Assembly: GCF_003074135.1 (NCBI RefSeq)
Contig: NZ_PPDK01000001.1
Span: 2,852,001-2,916,000, forward strand
Origin: Euzebya tangerina
GTDB taxonomy: Bacteria > Actinomycetota > Nitriliruptoria > Euzebyales > Euzebyaceae
Direction of reading: 5' to 3'
DNA length: 64,000 nucleotides
Part shown: positions 12,279 through 62,262 of the stretch, in pieces
Numbering within the stretch: position 1 is the stretch's first letter
Layout: every line of letters starts with the position of its first letter
Notes under the pieces: generated by a model
Seen by the model: only the letters and a program-made list of their open reading frames with translations
Told to the model about the DNA's origin: nothing
Databases searched by the model: none
Made by a program: the position numbers and the translations under genes

Positions 12279-13739
12279 CTAGCCCTCGCGACGTCGCAGA
12301 GAGACCAGGATCAGGCCGCTGAGGAGCATGAGCCCGAGTGCTGGAAGCGCGACGGTCGATCGTGAACCCGTGCGGGGCAGGTTGGTCTGGGAGTTGCTCG
12401 AACCGGAGCTCGAGTTGCTGGAGCTCGAACCAGAGGTGGAGGTTGCGGTGAAATCGGCGGTCGCACCGGCCTGGGTCCGATTCAGCTCAAGGCTGATGGC
12501 CGACCCGGTTCCCTCGGGAATCAGACCGACCGCCACCGGCTCGGTCAGGACCACGACACCGGTTGGGTCCGACGGTGGGTCGAAGTTCTCCTGGAAGCCG
12601 CCAGGTTCGACGCACGTCTGAAGACCTCGGTCGCTGAGGAAGCAGGACTCCTCCTCCGTGGTGCCCAGATCCAATCGGAGTGCACCGGCGCTCCGGTCGA
12701 GATCGACGCCCGCATTGGCCGCCGCGGGTGTCCGGAGGTCGGGAGGGAGGATCTCGAGCAGTCCAGTTGGGAGCTCGCGAACGATGTCAGCCGTGTCAGT
12801 CGTCGAGTCGGCGCCGAGCGCCTCGAGCACCCCCGGGAGCATGGTCACCGTGACGTCGGGCTGATCCCTGTCCGTCGCCGGACGAGCCGTGCCATTGGCG
12901 GCGGCCGCCGACCGTGCCGCACCGATCTCGATGATGAACAGGCCATCAGGTGCGTCGGCGCGGTCTTGGTCGGTTGGGATGACGGTGATGATGGAGGGCC
13001 CGACGGTCGACTCGGTGCGGATGACGCGATCGCTGAAGACCGAGGTGCTCACCCCGTCGCCGCCGTACATCGTCACCAGAGGTCGGTCGGTGAGGTCCGC
13101 GCGCAGCTCGCTGACGGCCTCCTCGATCTCATCGAGCGCCGGGTCGCCCTGAGGGAGCGCGGCGAGCGCCTGATCAAGGCGGATCAGGTTGTCGGTCATT
13201 CCCTGCACGCCGGGCGAGGACAGGTCAGCCACGGCCGCGTCGGTGAGGAGCAGTTCGAGCTGCGCACCGTCCGCCTCACTGCGCGCCCCGGTCGTGCTCG
13301 TCGTTGCCTGTGCCTCGCCGAGCCGTCCGCTCAGGTAGGCCTCCAGGTTGCCGGCAGCACCATCGTCCAGGTTCGCTGCGTCGACGGTGTCGTTGGTGAC
13401 CGCCGTGCCTCGGCGTGCCTCGGCCTCCGCTCCAGCGGGTTCGAGTGCGCCGGCAGCGTCTGCACACGTGATCGCTGTGCAGTCCGATCCGGACGCGCTC
13501 AGGTGGTTGACCTGCAACTCAACAGTGTCCAGCTCGTTGCCGCCGATCTCGACCTCGAGGCCGTTGACCGTCCCAGCACCGGCGAAGAGCAGGCGGTTCG
13601 CCACCCCCGACCCGGCATCGAGTTCCGTCGTCGGGTCGGTGTCGGACGTCGTGTCGTTCGTCTGGGAGTTCTGGGCTCCGCCGGGCAGCGCGGGAAGCAG
13701 GAGCGCCACGAACAGGGCACCCACGAACAGCTTCTTCAT
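12279..13739 (-). CDS. Secreted LPXTG-type cell-wall-anchored protein
   Basis: This 486-residue protein has an N-terminal signal peptide (MKKLFVGALFVALLLPALPGGAQ, cleaved after about residue 22) and a C-terminal sorting signal: LPRTG, a hydrophobic span (VALPALGLMLLSGLILVSL) and a RRREG tail. A sortase should link it to peptidoglycan. The body is acidic and Ala/Thr-rich with few cysteines, and a Ser/Asn-rich spacer precedes the anchor. No catalytic domain is recognised. The ATG at 13739 is chosen because it begins the signal peptide; longer in-frame starts overlap the AarF gene. It sits 49 bases behind that gene and just before the lipoprotein. No sortase gene is in the window. Confidence 0.8.
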   Translation of the reverse strand: MKKLFVGALFVALLLPALPGGAQNSQTNDTTSDTDPTTELDAGSGVANRLLFAGAGTVNGLEVEIGGNELDTVELQVNHLSASGSDCTAITCADAAGALEPAGAEAEARRGTAVTNDTVDAANLDDGAAGNLEAYLSGRLGEAQATTSTTGARSEADGAQLELLLTDAAVADLSSPGVQGMTDNLIRLDQALAALPQGDPALDEIEEAVSELRADLTDRPLVTMYGGDGVSTSVFSDRVIRTESTVGPSIITVIPTDQDRADAPDGLFIIEIGAARSAAAANGTARPATDRDQPDVTVTMLPGVLEALGADSTTDTADIVRELPTGLLEILPPDLRTPAAANAGVDLDRSAGALRLDLGTTEEESCFLSDRGLQTCVEPGGFQENFDPPSDPTGVVVLTEPVAVGLIPEGTGSAISLELNRTQAGATADFTATSTSGSSSSNSSSGSSNSQTNLPRTGSRSTVALPALGLMLLSGLILVSLRRREG

Positions 13740-13788
13740 GACAGAGGAACCCCTGGTCGCTAGACGGCTACTGGCGGAGCGGTCGAGT

Positions 13789-15195
13789 CTAGGCGCGAAG
13801 GTTCGACGCGTCGATGAAGGGCCGCTCCTCCTCACCCATGGGGGTCGCGGGCGGCGCGTCGAACCAGAACTCCTCCGAGATGCGGCGCCACGTGTTGGTT
13901 GCGCCGAGCAGCGCCATGATCGAGTTGATGCCCCACTGGATGCGATTGAGCACCAGGTAGTCGGGGGGCAGGTTCAGCCGTCTGATCATGTCGGAGTACC
14001 CCGCTCGCGGGTCGCTGGTCATGGCGATGACGCTCTGCGCGAAGGTCTGCGTGTAGGTGAAGGGCTCGTAGCTGAGGATCGGCGCGTTGAAGGCCTTGAA
14101 CCAGTCCAGGAGGCGCTGTGCGTCGGGCTTGGCACCCGGGAGGAAACCCGCCTCGTCGAACACCGCGAGCAGCCCCTCGGCATCGTCCTCCCACAGCGGT
14201 GCCAGCTGCCGCTTGATCATGGCCCGCATCTGCGAGGTGAAGGTCTTGACGGCGCCGAAGTCCAAGAACACGACCGAGCCGTCACCGGGAAACAGATAGT
14301 TCCCCGGATGCGGGTCACCGTTGAAGAGACGGAAGCGGTGGAGGGAACCGAAGGAGAACCGGTAGATCGCCTCGGCGTACCGCTGCTTCGCGGCATCGTC
14401 GGCCTCGGCGAGCATGCCCTCGAAGGACTGGCCCTCGACGAACTCGGTCACCAGGATGCGGGGACGACACCACTCCAGGTGGACCGCCGGGATGCGGACG
14501 AAGGGGTGCCCGTCGTAGCGGTCGAAGAAGGCCTGGTGGTACTGGGCCTCGCGCTGGTAGTCGAGCTCGTCAGACATGCGGTCCCGCAGCTCGAGCATGA
14601 GCGGCTTGACCTTGAGGTTGGGGGAGACGACCTTGACCAGGGGTGCCAGGAGCTCGGCGTTGTCGAGGTCGGACTCGATGGCCTCGGCGATCCCGGGGTA
14701 CTGGACCTTCACCGCGACGTCGCTGCCATCGGGCAGGGTTGCGCGATGGACTTGACCGATGGAAGCCGACGCGACCGGCTCGGGGTCCCACACCGCGAAG
14801 ACGTCCTCGGCGGGTGTGCCGTACTGCTCAGCGATCACACCCTCGATGACCTCAACCCCGACCGGCTCGGACTGCGCGCGCAGGGCGGCGAGCTCCTGCT
14901 GGTAGGCCGCACGCACCTCGGGTGGCAGATCCACGTCCACGAAGGAGGCGATCTGGCCCATCTTCATCGCCAGACCCTTCATCGATCCCAGCAACTCTGC
15001 GGCCTGGGCGGCCGTCTCCGCGTGGAAGGCCGTCTCGGCACCACCCTGGCCGGTGAGGTCCCGCAGACGGGCCCCCAGCAACCCGGCCCCGGCACCGGCG
15101 GAGAACCGTGCGAGGTTCCGCCCCCGCGAGAGGCGATCCCCCAAGGGATTCCCGCGGCCGTCGTCAGACGCGGGAGTAGGGCGGTCGGATGCCAT
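13789..15195 (-). CDS. AarF/UbiB (ABC1) family atypical kinase
   Basis: This 468-residue protein carries the ABC1/ADCK hallmarks: the KxGQ motif at residues 78-81 (MKMGQ), the A-rich loop and catalytic Lys near 163 (VAVKVQYPG), then GDPHPGNYLF and LDFGAV, corresponding to the catalytic and metal-binding loops. The family acts in ubiquinone or menaquinone-lipid homeostasis as an ATPase/kinase-like protein. The substrate here is unknown. It is divergent from the PP2C phosphatase, sharing a 47-base control region, and lies upstream of the wall-protein/lipoprotein pair. Confidence 0.92.
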   Translation of the reverse strand: MASDRPTPASDDGRGNPLGDRLSRGRNLARFSAGAGAGLLGARLRDLTGQGGAETAFHAETAAQAAELLGSMKGLAMKMGQIASFVDVDLPPEVRAAYQQELAALRAQSEPVGVEVIEGVIAEQYGTPAEDVFAVWDPEPVASASIGQVHRATLPDGSDVAVKVQYPGIAEAIESDLDNAELLAPLVKVVSPNLKVKPLMLELRDRMSDELDYQREAQYHQAFFDRYDGHPFVRIPAVHLEWCRPRILVTEFVEGQSFEGMLAEADDAAKQRYAEAIYRFSFGSLHRFRLFNGDPHPGNYLFPGDGSVVFLDFGAVKTFTSQMRAMIKRQLAPLWEDDAEGLLAVFDEAGFLPGAKPDAQRLLDWFKAFNAPILSYEPFTYTQTFAQSVIAMTSDPRAGYSDMIRRLNLPPDYLVLNRIQWGINSIMALLGATNTWRRISEEFWFDAPPATPMGEEERPFIDASNLRA

Positions 15196-18962: not shown

Positions 18963-20432
18963 CTACGACCCCGACCGCATCACCTCGATTCGGACGGTTG
19001 CGACACCGTCGTCCTTCATCCGCAGTTCGTCCGCAGCAGCTGAGGAGACGTCCAGGACGCGATCGCCGGAGAAGGGCCCCCGGTCGTTGATCCGGAGGTT
19101 CACGACCTCCCCGTTGTCCAGGTTGGTGACCCGGATGAGGCTGTTGAACGGGAGCGTGCGATGTGCTGCGGTGAACTCGGCGGGGTCGAACGTCTCGCCG
19201 TTGGCCGTCGGCCGTCCCTCGAAGCCTGGTCCGTACCACGAGGCCACGCCGTGGATCACCTCCACGGGGGAACCGTCCCCGACGTCCGGCTGTGTCGGAC
19301 CAGGCGGGCTGATCGGGTCCGGGGCGGGGGCGGAGGAGGGGGCCGGCTCCGGCTCCTCCGGCGGGCCAAGCGGCTCTGGGGGAGCGGAGAGCGGCCCGGG
19401 CTCGTTCTGCAGGGCCGAGTCGAGTTGGGCGACCACGAAGTCATCGGCAGCGACCGGCCCGCCGACGACCACACCGGAGCTGAGCACGTGGGCGTTGCTG
19501 CGCAGGAACGTCTCGCTCGTCGCCGGCAGCTGGTCGGTCGGGGGGACCAGCAGCAGCGGGGCGCCCAGGCTTGCGGCCAGCGATCCGGCCGACAGCGCAT
19601 CGGGGAAGGCGCGGCCGGAGGCGAACACCGCAGGACGGGGACTGCCGTCGAACCGTCGCAGCGACTCCGCAGCCAGTGCCACCGACGTGTCGTACCGACT
19701 GCTCTCGACGATCCGCCGTGTCTGATACCCGAGCCCTCGCAGCTGGTCCTCCACCTGATCTGAGATCGTCTGGGCATTGCCGAGGATGATGACCTCGGAT
19801 GCGCTGAGCTGGGCCAGGGCACCGACGGTTGCCGACGGTAGGGCGTCCGGCTGGGTGAGCAGGGTCGGGATCCGGTCAGGAGTGGCCGCGAGGGACCCGG
19901 AGGCAACGGCATCCGGCCACGCACGGTCGGGGTTTGGGTGTTCACCGAGCGCGAGCACCACCTCACCCGTCCGCGAGGGCCCGGCGGCGACGGCGATGGC
20001 CTGAGCGGTCTCGAAGCGACTCGCGCCGGCCAGTCTGTTGATGTCGTAGCCGAGCGTTCGCAGACGCTGCTCGACCGCGTCGGAGACGGCGTTCACGCCC
20101 CCGAGGATCCACACCCGATCAGCCTGGAGTCGTGCCAGTTCGGCCTCGACGGCGACCGGGAGGCTGTCGGTGGCGGTCAGCAGCAGAGGAGCGTGCAGCG
20201 CGTGCGTGAGCGCGCTGGCGGCCAACGCGTCGGGGAAGCTGAACGCGGTCGCCAGGACCACGTCGGAGGCTTGGGACCGGAACTGCTGGGACGCCTCGAC
20301 GGCGGTCTGGATGCGATCGTTTCCGGCGGCACGGCTGACGACGGAGTCTGCTGAGGCCAGGGTTGGGCTCAGCGACACGACGAGTACGGCTACCAGGAGT
20401 GATGTGGCAGCGCGTTTGAGGGAGAGGGGCAT
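18963..20432 (-). CDS. CWB2-repeat protein with C-terminal RlpA-type barrel domain
   Basis: This 489-residue secreted protein has a signal peptide (to about residue 28) and three cell-wall-binding repeat 2 units (about 32-350) with the typical R-x2-G-x2-R-x2-TA, FPDAL and V-x-I-x-GG signatures. A Pro/Glu/Ala-rich linker (about 350-390) leads to a double-psi beta-barrel like RlpA (about 393-485; GVASWYG...NGETFDP...LRINDRGPF...). The conserved Glu of NGETFD and Asp of INDRGPF, considered catalytic in RlpA lytic transglycosylases, are both present, so it may be a wall-bound glycan-strand hydrolase. The 200 bases upstream (20433-20636) show no gene, and I found no convincing riboswitch there. 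Confidence 0.88.
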   Translation of the reverse strand: MPLSLKRAATSLLVAVLVVSLSPTLASADSVVSRAAGNDRIQTAVEASQQFRSQASDVVLATAFSFPDALAASALTHALHAPLLLTATDSLPVAVEAELARLQADRVWILGGVNAVSDAVEQRLRTLGYDINRLAGASRFETAQAIAVAAGPSRTGEVVLALGEHPNPDRAWPDAVASGSLAATPDRIPTLLTQPDALPSATVGALAQLSASEVIILGNAQTISDQVEDQLRGLGYQTRRIVESSRYDTSVALAAESLRRFDGSPRPAVFASGRAFPDALSAGSLAASLGAPLLLVPPTDQLPATSETFLRSNAHVLSSGVVVGGPVAADDFVVAQLDSALQNEPGPLSAPPEPLGPPEEPEPAPSSAPAPDPISPPGPTQPDVGDGSPVEVIHGVASWYGPGFEGRPTANGETFDPAEFTAAHRTLPFNSLIRVTNLDNGEVVNLRINDRGPFSGDRVLDVSSAAADELRMKDDGVATVRIEVMRSGS

Positions 20433-58849: not shown

Positions 58850-60160
58850 GTGGCGGGTGTGGCCCGACGACTCCCGCTCCTGATCGGCCTGCTGTTCCTG
58901 GGCGCGTGTGCGGCACTCGGCGGGGGTGAGGGGGCGGATGCGGGTGCGGTCAATCCGACACTCGTTCCGGCTGCGTCGCCTGGCCAGCCCGAACCAGCCG
59001 ATCCGACACCCGACCAGCCCGCACCCGACCAGCCCGCACCAGACCAGCCTGCGCCGCCGGCCGAGCCGACCCCTTCGTCAGGACTCACGAGCACCCCCCC
59101 GGCGGGACGCACCCCGACCCCGACGGCGGGTGACCCCTCGTCCGCCGACCTCGCGCTCCTCGAGATCGCACGACTTGACCAACCGATCGCGATGGCAGTC
59201 CGACCTGGCGACACCGAACGGGTCTACATCGCCGAACGAGCTGGCAGGGTTCGCCCCCTGGGCTTGGACGGCGCGGTGGGGGACCCGCTCGTGGACATCT
59301 CCGCGAGCACCACCACCCAGAGCGAACGCGGCCTGCTGGGGCTGGCCTGGTCGCCGAGCGGCGAGCAGCTGTACATCTCCTCGACCGACACCGACGGGGC
59401 CACGGTCATCGAGGTGTTCGACGTGGCGGACAACGTCCTCGACACCTCCAGCCGACGCGTGGTCCTGCGTGTGGAGCAGCCGGCCAGCAACCACAACGGC
59501 GGTGACATCTCCTTCGGCCCGGACGGGTTCCTCTGGATCGGGCTGGGTGACGGCGGCGCCTCAGACGACCGGTTCGGCAATGGCCAGCGACCTGACACCT
59601 TGCTCGGGGCCATGCTGCGGATCGACCCGCTGAGCGGTGAGCCCTACCAGATCCCTGCTGACAACCCGTTCGTGGCCGGAGGTGGGGCACCGGAGGTCTT
59701 CGCCTACGGGCTCCGCAACCCGTGGCGCTTCTCCTTCGATGCAGCGACCGGTGAGGTGTGGATCGCCGACGTCGGTCAGAACGCCGTCGAGGAGATCAAT
59801 CGGGTACCAGCGGACCAGGCCGGGCTGAACTTCGGCTGGCCGCGGTTCGAGGGTGATCGTCCCTTCGACGGGCTGAGCGCCGACGGCCCGGTGGTGGACC
59901 CGGTCCACACCTACACCCACAGCCGCGGCTGCTCGATCACCGGTGGGGCCGTCTACCGCGGGACGATGATCCCGGAGCTGACGGGGGCCTACCTCTACTC
60001 CGACTTCTGCAACGGCCAGGTCTTCGCGCTGGCCGCCGACGGTGCCGACGTGGACACTGGCGTGGCAGCCGAAGCCGTTGTGTCCTTCGGGCAGGATGCA
60101 GCCGGCGAGATGTACGTGCTCTCGCTCGACGGCCCCGTCTACCGCATCGCACCCGCGTGA
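58850..60160 (+). CDS. Lipid-anchored PQQ-type sugar dehydrogenase (beta-propeller)
   Basis: In this 436-residue protein a lipobox (LLFLGAC) near residue 20 gives membrane attachment, followed by a Pro/Thr-rich linker with DQPAP repeats (about 45-90). The six-bladed glucose/sorbosone-dehydrogenase domain runs from 100 to the end. Family marks are the His of NHNGGDISFGPDGFLWIGLGDGG, NPFVAGGGAPEVFAYGLRNPWRFSFD, DVGQNAVEEIN and the C-terminal RGCSITGGAVYRG blade. PQQ or a related role in oxidising sugars outside the membrane is expected. The stop lies 20 bases before the next, homologous gene. Confidence 0.88.
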   Translation: MAGVARRLPLLIGLLFLGACAALGGGEGADAGAVNPTLVPAASPGQPEPADPTPDQPAPDQPAPDQPAPPAEPTPSSGLTSTPPAGRTPTPTAGDPSSADLALLEIARLDQPIAMAVRPGDTERVYIAERAGRVRPLGLDGAVGDPLVDISASTTTQSERGLLGLAWSPSGEQLYISSTDTDGATVIEVFDVADNVLDTSSRRVVLRVEQPASNHNGGDISFGPDGFLWIGLGDGGASDDRFGNGQRPDTLLGAMLRIDPLSGEPYQIPADNPFVAGGGAPEVFAYGLRNPWRFSFDAATGEVWIADVGQNAVEEINRVPADQAGLNFGWPRFEGDRPFDGLSADGPVVDPVHTYTHSRGCSITGGAVYRGTMIPELTGAYLYSDFCNGQVFALAADGADVDTGVAAEAVVSFGQDAAGEMYVLSLDGPVYRIAPA

Positions 60161-60180
60161 GCACTGAGCCAGGAGTCCCA

Positions 60181-62262
60181 ATGCGAGCCCAACGCAGTCC
60201 CCACCCAACCCGTCGCGCCCTCATGCTGGCCGCCGCGGTGGTCCTGCTCTTCCCGCTGCTCCCGAACCCGATGGTGGCCGCCGGGGAGCCCCAGCGGATC
60301 GGAACCGACCAGGACCCCGTCGTCTCGGCCATCGAACTGAACCAAGCGCGGACAGCCGGTCCCGACGGGGAGCAGTTGACCAGCACCATCGTCCTCGGCC
60401 GGTCCGACGTGTTCGCCGACAACCTGGCCGCCACCGCCCTCGCTGGGCCCGACGGCGCCGTGCTGTTCACCGATGGGGGGCCCCAGGCGTCCTTGCGCGG
60501 AGAGGTCATCCAGGAGATCGAGCGCACGATGCCGCCGTTCGACTGTGCCGACGGCGGGGCAGGCACGATCTTCCTCGCCGGCGGCGTCAACGCGGTCAGT
60601 CAGGCCGTCGAGGACGAACTGCGGCAGTTCCCGTACTGCGTCGAGCGACTGGATGGCCCCAGCCGTGTGGAGACCGCGGTGGCGATCGCAGAGCGCATCT
60701 CCGATCCCTCGGACACCGTGCTGTTGGCACGATCGGACAACTTCGCCGACGCGGGGTCGATCGGCTCCTTCGCGGCAACGACGCGAAGTCGCATCCTCGT
60801 AACACCCACCGACCAGCTGCACCCTGCCGTGGCGGCCGCGCTGCAGGAGATGGCACCCGCGGAGATCGTCCTCCTCGGCGGCGATCAGGCCCTGTCCGAC
60901 ACGGTTCTGCAGCAGGCCGAGGAGTTCGCGCCCACCCGCCGCGTGTCCGGGCCGACGCGTGACACGACAGCGGTGGCCTTCGCACGAGAGCTGTGGGGCA
61001 CCGACCTCGCTGAGCGCGGATCGGGCGTAGCACTGGCCGACGGGTTCGCCGACGATGACTGGACACGACTCTTCGCCGGAGCTGCCTACGCTGCGCAACG
61101 GGGCATGCCGATCCTGTACACCAACGAAGGCGAGATCACGCCCGGGACCGCCGAGTACCTGAGCGCCGAGCAGCCCGACCCCGTCGTCGTCTTCGGCGCC
61201 GCCCCCGCCAGCGATGTGGCGCTGAGCGACGTCCGGATCGGCCTCGAGACGGTGGTGTCCGTCAACCAGCCACTCATGGTCAAGCCCCGACCGGGGACCG
61301 ACGAGCTGTGGATCATCGAGCGGCGTGGGTCCATCCAGGCGCTCGGTCCGGACGGGTTGCGAGAGGTGCTCGACATCTCGAGCACGGTGTCCGCGAACGG
61401 CGAACGCGGTCTGCTGGGACTGGCATTCAGCCCGGACGGCGACACGCTGTACACCTCCTCGACCGACAACGCTGGTGACTCGGTCCTGGACGAGTTCCAG
61501 ATCACCGACGGCGTCGCCGACGTGTCGACCCGGCGCGAGATCATCGAGGTGGACCAGCCCGCCAGCAACCACAACGGCGGCGACCTCGTCTGGGGGCCCG
61601 ACGACTACCTGTACTGGGCCCTGGGTGACGGGGGTGCCTCCGACGACCGCTTCGGCAACGGCCAGAACACCGGCACCCTCCTCGGGGGCATCGTCCGGCT
61701 CGACGTGACCGGTGCGCAGCCCTACACCGTCCCTCCCGACAACCCCTTCGTCGACGGGGGCGGCGCGCCGGAGTTGTGGGCCTACGGGCTCCGCAACCCG
61801 TGGCGCATCGCCTTCGACCCGGAGACCGACGACTTCTACATCGGTGACGTCGGACAGGACCGGATCGAGGAGATCGACTTCGTCCCGGCCGGGACCGGCG
61901 GCGGCCGCAACTACGGCTGGCCCGTCTTCGAGGGCTCCCGTCCGTTCGCCGGGTCGAGCCTGGCCGACCACACCCCCCCGATCCTCGAGGAGAGCCACGC
62001 GCAGGGGAACTGCTCGATCACCGGCGGCGTGGTGTACCGGGGGAACGACATCCCGGAACTCGACGGCGTCTACCTCTACAGCGACATCTGCCGCAGCTCG
62101 ATCCGCGGCCTCATCGTCGGCGACGACGGCACCGTGATCGACCAGGCAGACCTCGACGTTCGGGTCAGCGGCGGCTCACCCGTGGGCTTCGGCGTCGACC
62201 ACCGCGGGGAGGTCCTCGTCCTCAGCCTGAGCGGGGACATCGCCAAGATCGTCCCCGCCTGA
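60181..62262 (+). CDS. CWB2 cell-wall-binding array fused to PQQ-type sugar dehydrogenase
   Basis: In this 693-residue protein a signal peptide (to about residue 35) is followed by about three cell-wall-binding repeat 2 units (about 40-350; TIFLAGGVNAVSQAV, GPSRVETAVAIAERI, AEIVLLGGDQALSDTV). A sugar-dehydrogenase beta-propeller then runs from about 360 to 693 (GERGLLGLAFSPDGDTLY, NHNGGDLVWGPDDYLYWALGDGG, NPFVDGGGAPELWAYGLRNPWRIAFD, DVGQDRIEEIDF). The propeller is a close paralogue of the upstream lipoprotein's. AGGAG lies 5-6 bases before the ATG at 60181; a GTG at 60157 overlapping the previous stop is possible. The wall-binding array replaces the lipid anchor. Confidence 0.92.
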   Translation: MRAQRSPHPTRRALMLAAAVVLLFPLLPNPMVAAGEPQRIGTDQDPVVSAIELNQARTAGPDGEQLTSTIVLGRSDVFADNLAATALAGPDGAVLFTDGGPQASLRGEVIQEIERTMPPFDCADGGAGTIFLAGGVNAVSQAVEDELRQFPYCVERLDGPSRVETAVAIAERISDPSDTVLLARSDNFADAGSIGSFAATTRSRILVTPTDQLHPAVAAALQEMAPAEIVLLGGDQALSDTVLQQAEEFAPTRRVSGPTRDTTAVAFARELWGTDLAERGSGVALADGFADDDWTRLFAGAAYAAQRGMPILYTNEGEITPGTAEYLSAEQPDPVVVFGAAPASDVALSDVRIGLETVVSVNQPLMVKPRPGTDELWIIERRGSIQALGPDGLREVLDISSTVSANGERGLLGLAFSPDGDTLYTSSTDNAGDSVLDEFQITDGVADVSTRREIIEVDQPASNHNGGDLVWGPDDYLYWALGDGGASDDRFGNGQNTGTLLGGIVRLDVTGAQPYTVPPDNPFVDGGGAPELWAYGLRNPWRIAFDPETDDFYIGDVGQDRIEEIDFVPAGTGGGRNYGWPVFEGSRPFAGSSLADHTPPILEESHAQGNCSITGGVVYRGNDIPELDGVYLYSDICRSSIRGLIVGDDGTVIDQADLDVRVSGGSPVGFGVDHRGEVLVLSLSGDIAKIVPA

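Follow-up and report, generated by a model that had tools for sequence, protein, structure and literature searches.

Genes A and B, which lie side by side in the window (the whole stretch of Euzebya tangerina DNA that was analysed, 64,000 nucleotides), encode paralogous proteins with the same propeller domain and two different surface anchors. The arrangement is a real, conserved and recurrent architecture. Our favoured reading, to which we give an even chance as a whole, is a lineage-specific split of a duplicated HHIP-like propeller between a lipid anchor and a wall anchor, the products being likely extracellular enzymes with an altered way of holding their cofactor. A preliminary description had seen in the same genes a paired PQQ sugar oxidase system, which is unproven and is weakened at the cofactor.

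The A and B proteins and their anchors

The features of both genes are collected in Table 1. In a Pfam profile search with a curated cut-off of 25 bits, the GSDH family (PF07995) is matched by A with 132.8 bits (E = 2.2e-38) and by B with 120.1 bits (E = 1.7e-34), and the two propellers are 51% identical to each other, which bears out the adjacent paralogues of the preliminary description. Its distinction between two anchors, a lipobox with a proline-rich stalk in A and three CWB2 repeats in B, also holds. The lipobox of A has counterparts in the orthologues of three related genomes, G001 (LAGC), G002 (LTGC) and G003 (LTAC), and A is accordingly predicted to be lipid-anchored at the membrane, with its propeller exported. 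The N-terminus of B reads as a hydrophobic signal without a lipobox, followed by three stretches matching CW_binding_2 (PF04122, E = 7.3e-26). The P-[ILV]-[ILV]-[LV] (PILL) motif, which every CWB2 repeat requires in Clostridioides difficile, is fitted only loosely or partially by the B repeats, which have AVLF, RILV and PILY at this place. We infer that B is anchored in the wall by its triple CWB2 and that its propeller is exported as well. B would measure 701 residues from a GTG at 60157 and 693 from an ATG at 60181; the latter start is more likely because a probable ribosome-binding site precedes it by 5 nt, and A and B are therefore probably 20 nt apart rather than overlapping.

Table 1 Features of the A and B genes. 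Positions are those of the window.
Feature	Position	Strand	Description and basis
Gene A	58850..60160	+	436 aa, GTG start; predicted lipoprotein with GSDH (HHIP-like) propeller; Pfam and orthologues in G001-G003
Lipobox of A (L17-G-A-C20)	58898..58909	+	Read from sequence
Proline-rich stalk of A	58967..59149	+	20 Pro in residues 38-100 (63 residues)
Six-bladed GSDH propeller of A	59162..60157	+	His215, Arg289-Asn290 = sGDH His144, Arg228-Asn229; Pfam and alignment
Cys codon of A, G/N-CSITGG motif	59930-59932		
Cys codon of A, Lys377 position	60008-60010		
Gene B	60157..62262	+	Signal peptide, three CWB2, GSDH propeller; Pfam and orthologues
AGGAG, probable ribosome-binding site of B	60171..60175	+	5 nt before ATG 60181; read from sequence
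CWB2 repeat 1 of B	60370..60609	+	In-house CWB2 HMM
CWB2 repeat 2 of B	60646..60906	+	Best-scoring repeat; Pfam PF04122 and in-house HMM
CWB2 repeat 3 of B	60940..61209	+	In-house CWB2 HMM
GSDH propeller of B	61252..62259	+	His472, Arg546-Asn547 = sGDH His144, Arg228-Asn229; Cys at Lys377 position; Pfam, alignment and AlphaFold
Cys codon of B, G/N-CSITGG motif	62011-62013		
Cys codon of B, Lys377 position	62089-62091		

Conservation and duplication of the pair

Each of the four genus genomes searched (E. tangerina and G001-G003) retains the pair, the B orthologues being 52-57% identical over their full length and each having an A orthologue adjoining it. The arrangement is thus no product of chance. 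Upstream, E. tangerina has a LAP gene and a small gene in common with G001 and G003, and downstream, exonuclease and TPM genes in common with G002 and G003, with intervening insertions in some genomes. In G001 and G002, a putative short-chain dehydrogenase and a cyclase-like protein (named by reading their sequences) adjoin B. A comparison of the flanks across G001-G003 found no dedicated partner gene travelling with the pair, and LAP, exonuclease and TPM represent regional synteny rather than dedicated partners.

A maximum-likelihood tree built from 50 propellers unites the four A proteins (support 100/100) and likewise the four B proteins (99/98). C4, the third GSDH protein of the genome and also fused to CWB2, groups with B (98/89), and the combined group of B and C4 has the A clade as its sister with moderate support (94/86). 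According to this tree, the A and B propellers are products of a duplication within the lineage. Of the 23 A-type relatives sampled in the class, 21 have a lipobox-like motif before the propeller, which is why A looks like the ancestral lipoprotein form and B like the derived one. The two A-type proteins without the motif carry SLH domains in its place, as do two more proteins of the class; of these four GSDH proteins with SLH (L069, L070, L068 and L057), two fall within the A-type part of the tree.

CWB2 fusions within the class

The E. tangerina genome has 163 CWB2 domain matches, and the 150 matches listed fall into at least 99 loci, compared with 29 CWB2 proteins in C. difficile (PMC4973711). 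Judged by these counts, CWB2 is the default surface anchor of the genome, which encodes a very large CWB2 surfaceome. Elsewhere in the window, a protein encoded at 18963-20432 (minus strand) combines three CWB2 repeats with a DPBB lytic transglycolase domain, and another, at 12279-13835 (minus strand), has an LPXTG-type anchor motif, which points to the probable use of a sortase-type anchor as well.

The preliminary description had proposed the fusion of CWB2 with a dehydrogenase domain as an architecture not described before. Our literature search found no description of a CWB2-GSDH architecture among the papers covered, but the proposal is weakened: the fusion is real yet not singular, since further examples occur in no fewer than six other class genomes (G026, G040, G048, G006, G015 and G027). 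The CWB2-fusion label needs five changes on the tree of 50 propellers, and AU tests reject a single origin, whether all CWB2-GSDH fusions are taken together (p-AU = 4.75e-05) or only the HHIP-like subset (p-AU = 1.0e-04). The tree and the tests together indicate that the fusion arose several times independently within the class, in B by way of what is the default anchor of its genome. One propeller family has thus been repeatedly re-tethered to the surface by lipid, CWB2 or SLH within a single class.

B-like propellers are common outside the class, where they mostly occupy open frames of about 400-500 residues; among the matches listed, alignments spanning both B domains come from class genomes only. 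A scan of named genomes gave only distant GSDH proteins (in Chloroflexi, Planctomycetota, Bacteroidota and others), all of them without CWB2. Related architectures within the class include five frames in G001-G003 (L072, L091, L092, L093 and L097) with a GSDH-like N-terminus and C-terminal CWB2 repeats; these frames are very long (1816-2694 residues), and two of them are truncated by the edge of the stretch retrieved. A single protein at L060 (2855-5470) joins CWB2, an Asd-type GSDH domain and a D-Ala-D-Ala carboxypeptidase M15.

A close parallel to the layout of B is found in the Cwp proteins of C. difficile, which likewise have three tandem CWB2 repeats beside a variable effector domain (PMC4973711) and whose CWB2 ligand is PSII (PMC4973711); in B, however, the effector is GSDH and the wall is actinobacterial.

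Structure and nearest known proteins

An AlphaFold model of the B propeller, built from an eight-sequence alignment, reached a pLDDT of 80.4 and a pTM of 0.85, while a single-sequence model of full-length B (pLDDT 36) was uninformative. The propellers belong to the HIPL subgroup of PF07995, which is common in Actinomycetota, and are 45-50% identical to many single-domain proteins of the phylum, from which B differs by its triple CWB2 anchor and its tandem lipoprotein paralogue. Among solved structures, the sequences closest to both propellers are those of human HHIP (2WFT, 3HO4, 7PGM), and HHIP, including its heparin-bound forms, is also the top Foldseek match of the B model. The structural Z scores (VIA-align) are nearly tied, with 37.2 for HHIP, 35-37 for Asd-type proteins and 35 for sGDH.

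These matches, together with the loss of the residues that hold the PQQ carboxylates (see below), would suit propellers that are non-catalytic ligand-binding modules like human HHIP, directed at glycans or other surface proteins. We nevertheless regard this as distinctly unlikely, as HHIP lacks the Arg-Asn pair of A and B: in a pairwise alignment it has HD where A has RN, which makes the bacterial propellers look more enzyme-like. The pair is present in 43 of 43 HIPL-type sequences, and the accompanying His in 42, although conservation of these residues in HIPL propellers could be structural rather than catalytic.

Active site and cofactor

Residues are numbered after the sGDH reference sequence, which matches PDB 1c9u over all 452 residues. 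In the alignment, A and B share with sGDH and Asd (1CRU, 2G8S, 3A9G) the fold and the equivalents of His144, Arg228, Asn229 and Gly247. Unlike these enzymes, which are basic at Lys377, Arg406 and Arg408, they have Cys at 377, Ala or Ser at 406 and Val at 408; Gln76 is replaced by Glu. The pattern is general among the 43 HIPL-type sequences, where Arg228, Asn229 and Gly247 are invariant, position 377 is Cys in 38, Arg406 is gone in nearly all and position 408 is Arg in one. Of 11 Asd/sGDH-type sequences chosen from the same alignment for Arg at 406 and 408, nine have a basic residue (Lys or Arg) at 377. CWB2 is fused to four of the 11, so the class does have CWB2-anchored proteins nearer the canonical pattern.

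Lys377 and Arg408 have roles in PQQ binding (PMC6881789), and their loss along with that of Arg406 argues, though not decisively, against PQQ. Fungal AA12 enzymes bind PQQ by a partly different set of residues (PMC6881789), and both CcSDH and HHIP are without some PQQ residues, yet CcSDH is PQQ-dependent (PMC4133262). Since His144, Arg228 and Asn229 are kept and AA12 offers a precedent, a quinone-dependent enzyme is still conceivable. Of the PQQ-type propeller in the preliminary description, then, the conserved His, Arg and Asn stand, while the lost basic residues, the proximity to HHIP and the genome searches speak against it.

The check for PQQ synthesis genes that had been proposed came out negative. 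A profile search for PqqC (TIGR02111) gave no match in the E. tangerina genome, and none of 66 class genomes (E. tangerina and 65 relatives) exceeded the cut-off, the sole match in the class being sub-threshold, in G048. The result is informative because the same search succeeds elsewhere in the phylum, with 7 of 246 genomes over the cut-off. PqqE matches were discarded as evidence of PQQ, as they lie far below the cut-off and occur in all 14 control genomes.

If A and B were nonetheless true PQQ/Ca-dependent aldose dehydrogenases, one membrane-bound and one wall-bound, they would have to scavenge the cofactor. Salvage is possible given that E. coli employs a PQQ enzyme although it does not synthesise PQQ (PMC6881810), and the retained His144, Arg228, Asn229 and Gly247, the fold and the AA12 precedent fit such enzymes. 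The substitutions at 377, 406 and 408, the PqqC result and the scores against TIGR03606 (NCBIfam; 50.4 bits for A and 62.5 for B, below a cut-off of 434.55) do not, and we consider this explanation rather unlikely. Automatic annotation as 'PQQ-dependent sugar dehydrogenase' is accordingly doubtful for the large HHIP-like subgroup.

Proposed function

In our favoured reading, A and B would be co-directional, presumably co-expressed sister proteins, each displaying an HHIP-like six-bladed propeller outside the cell, that of A held at the membrane on a lipid-anchored proline-rich stalk and that of B in the wall by triple CWB2. A would have kept the lipoprotein form common in the class, and B, arising from the lineage duplication, would then have been fused to CWB2, the anchor used at about 100 loci of the genome. 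The propellers would most likely be extracellular enzymes that use the His and the Arg-Asn pair to act on a small substrate, either sugar-like or an alcohol. As the Lys and Arg that bind the PQQ carboxylates are gone, a cofactor (altered or salvaged) or the substrate would be held otherwise than in sGDH. A bolder version, in which bacterial HHIP-like GSDH propellers form a distinct class of surface oxidoreductases, whose cofactor is not PQQ or is held in another way, and the pair with lipid and CWB2 anchors provides membrane and wall stations for one extracellular substrate, strikes us as a long shot.

Besides the Cys at the Lys377 position, A and B each have a second Cys in a G/N-CSITGG motif, and a disulphide between the two is possible in both proteins.
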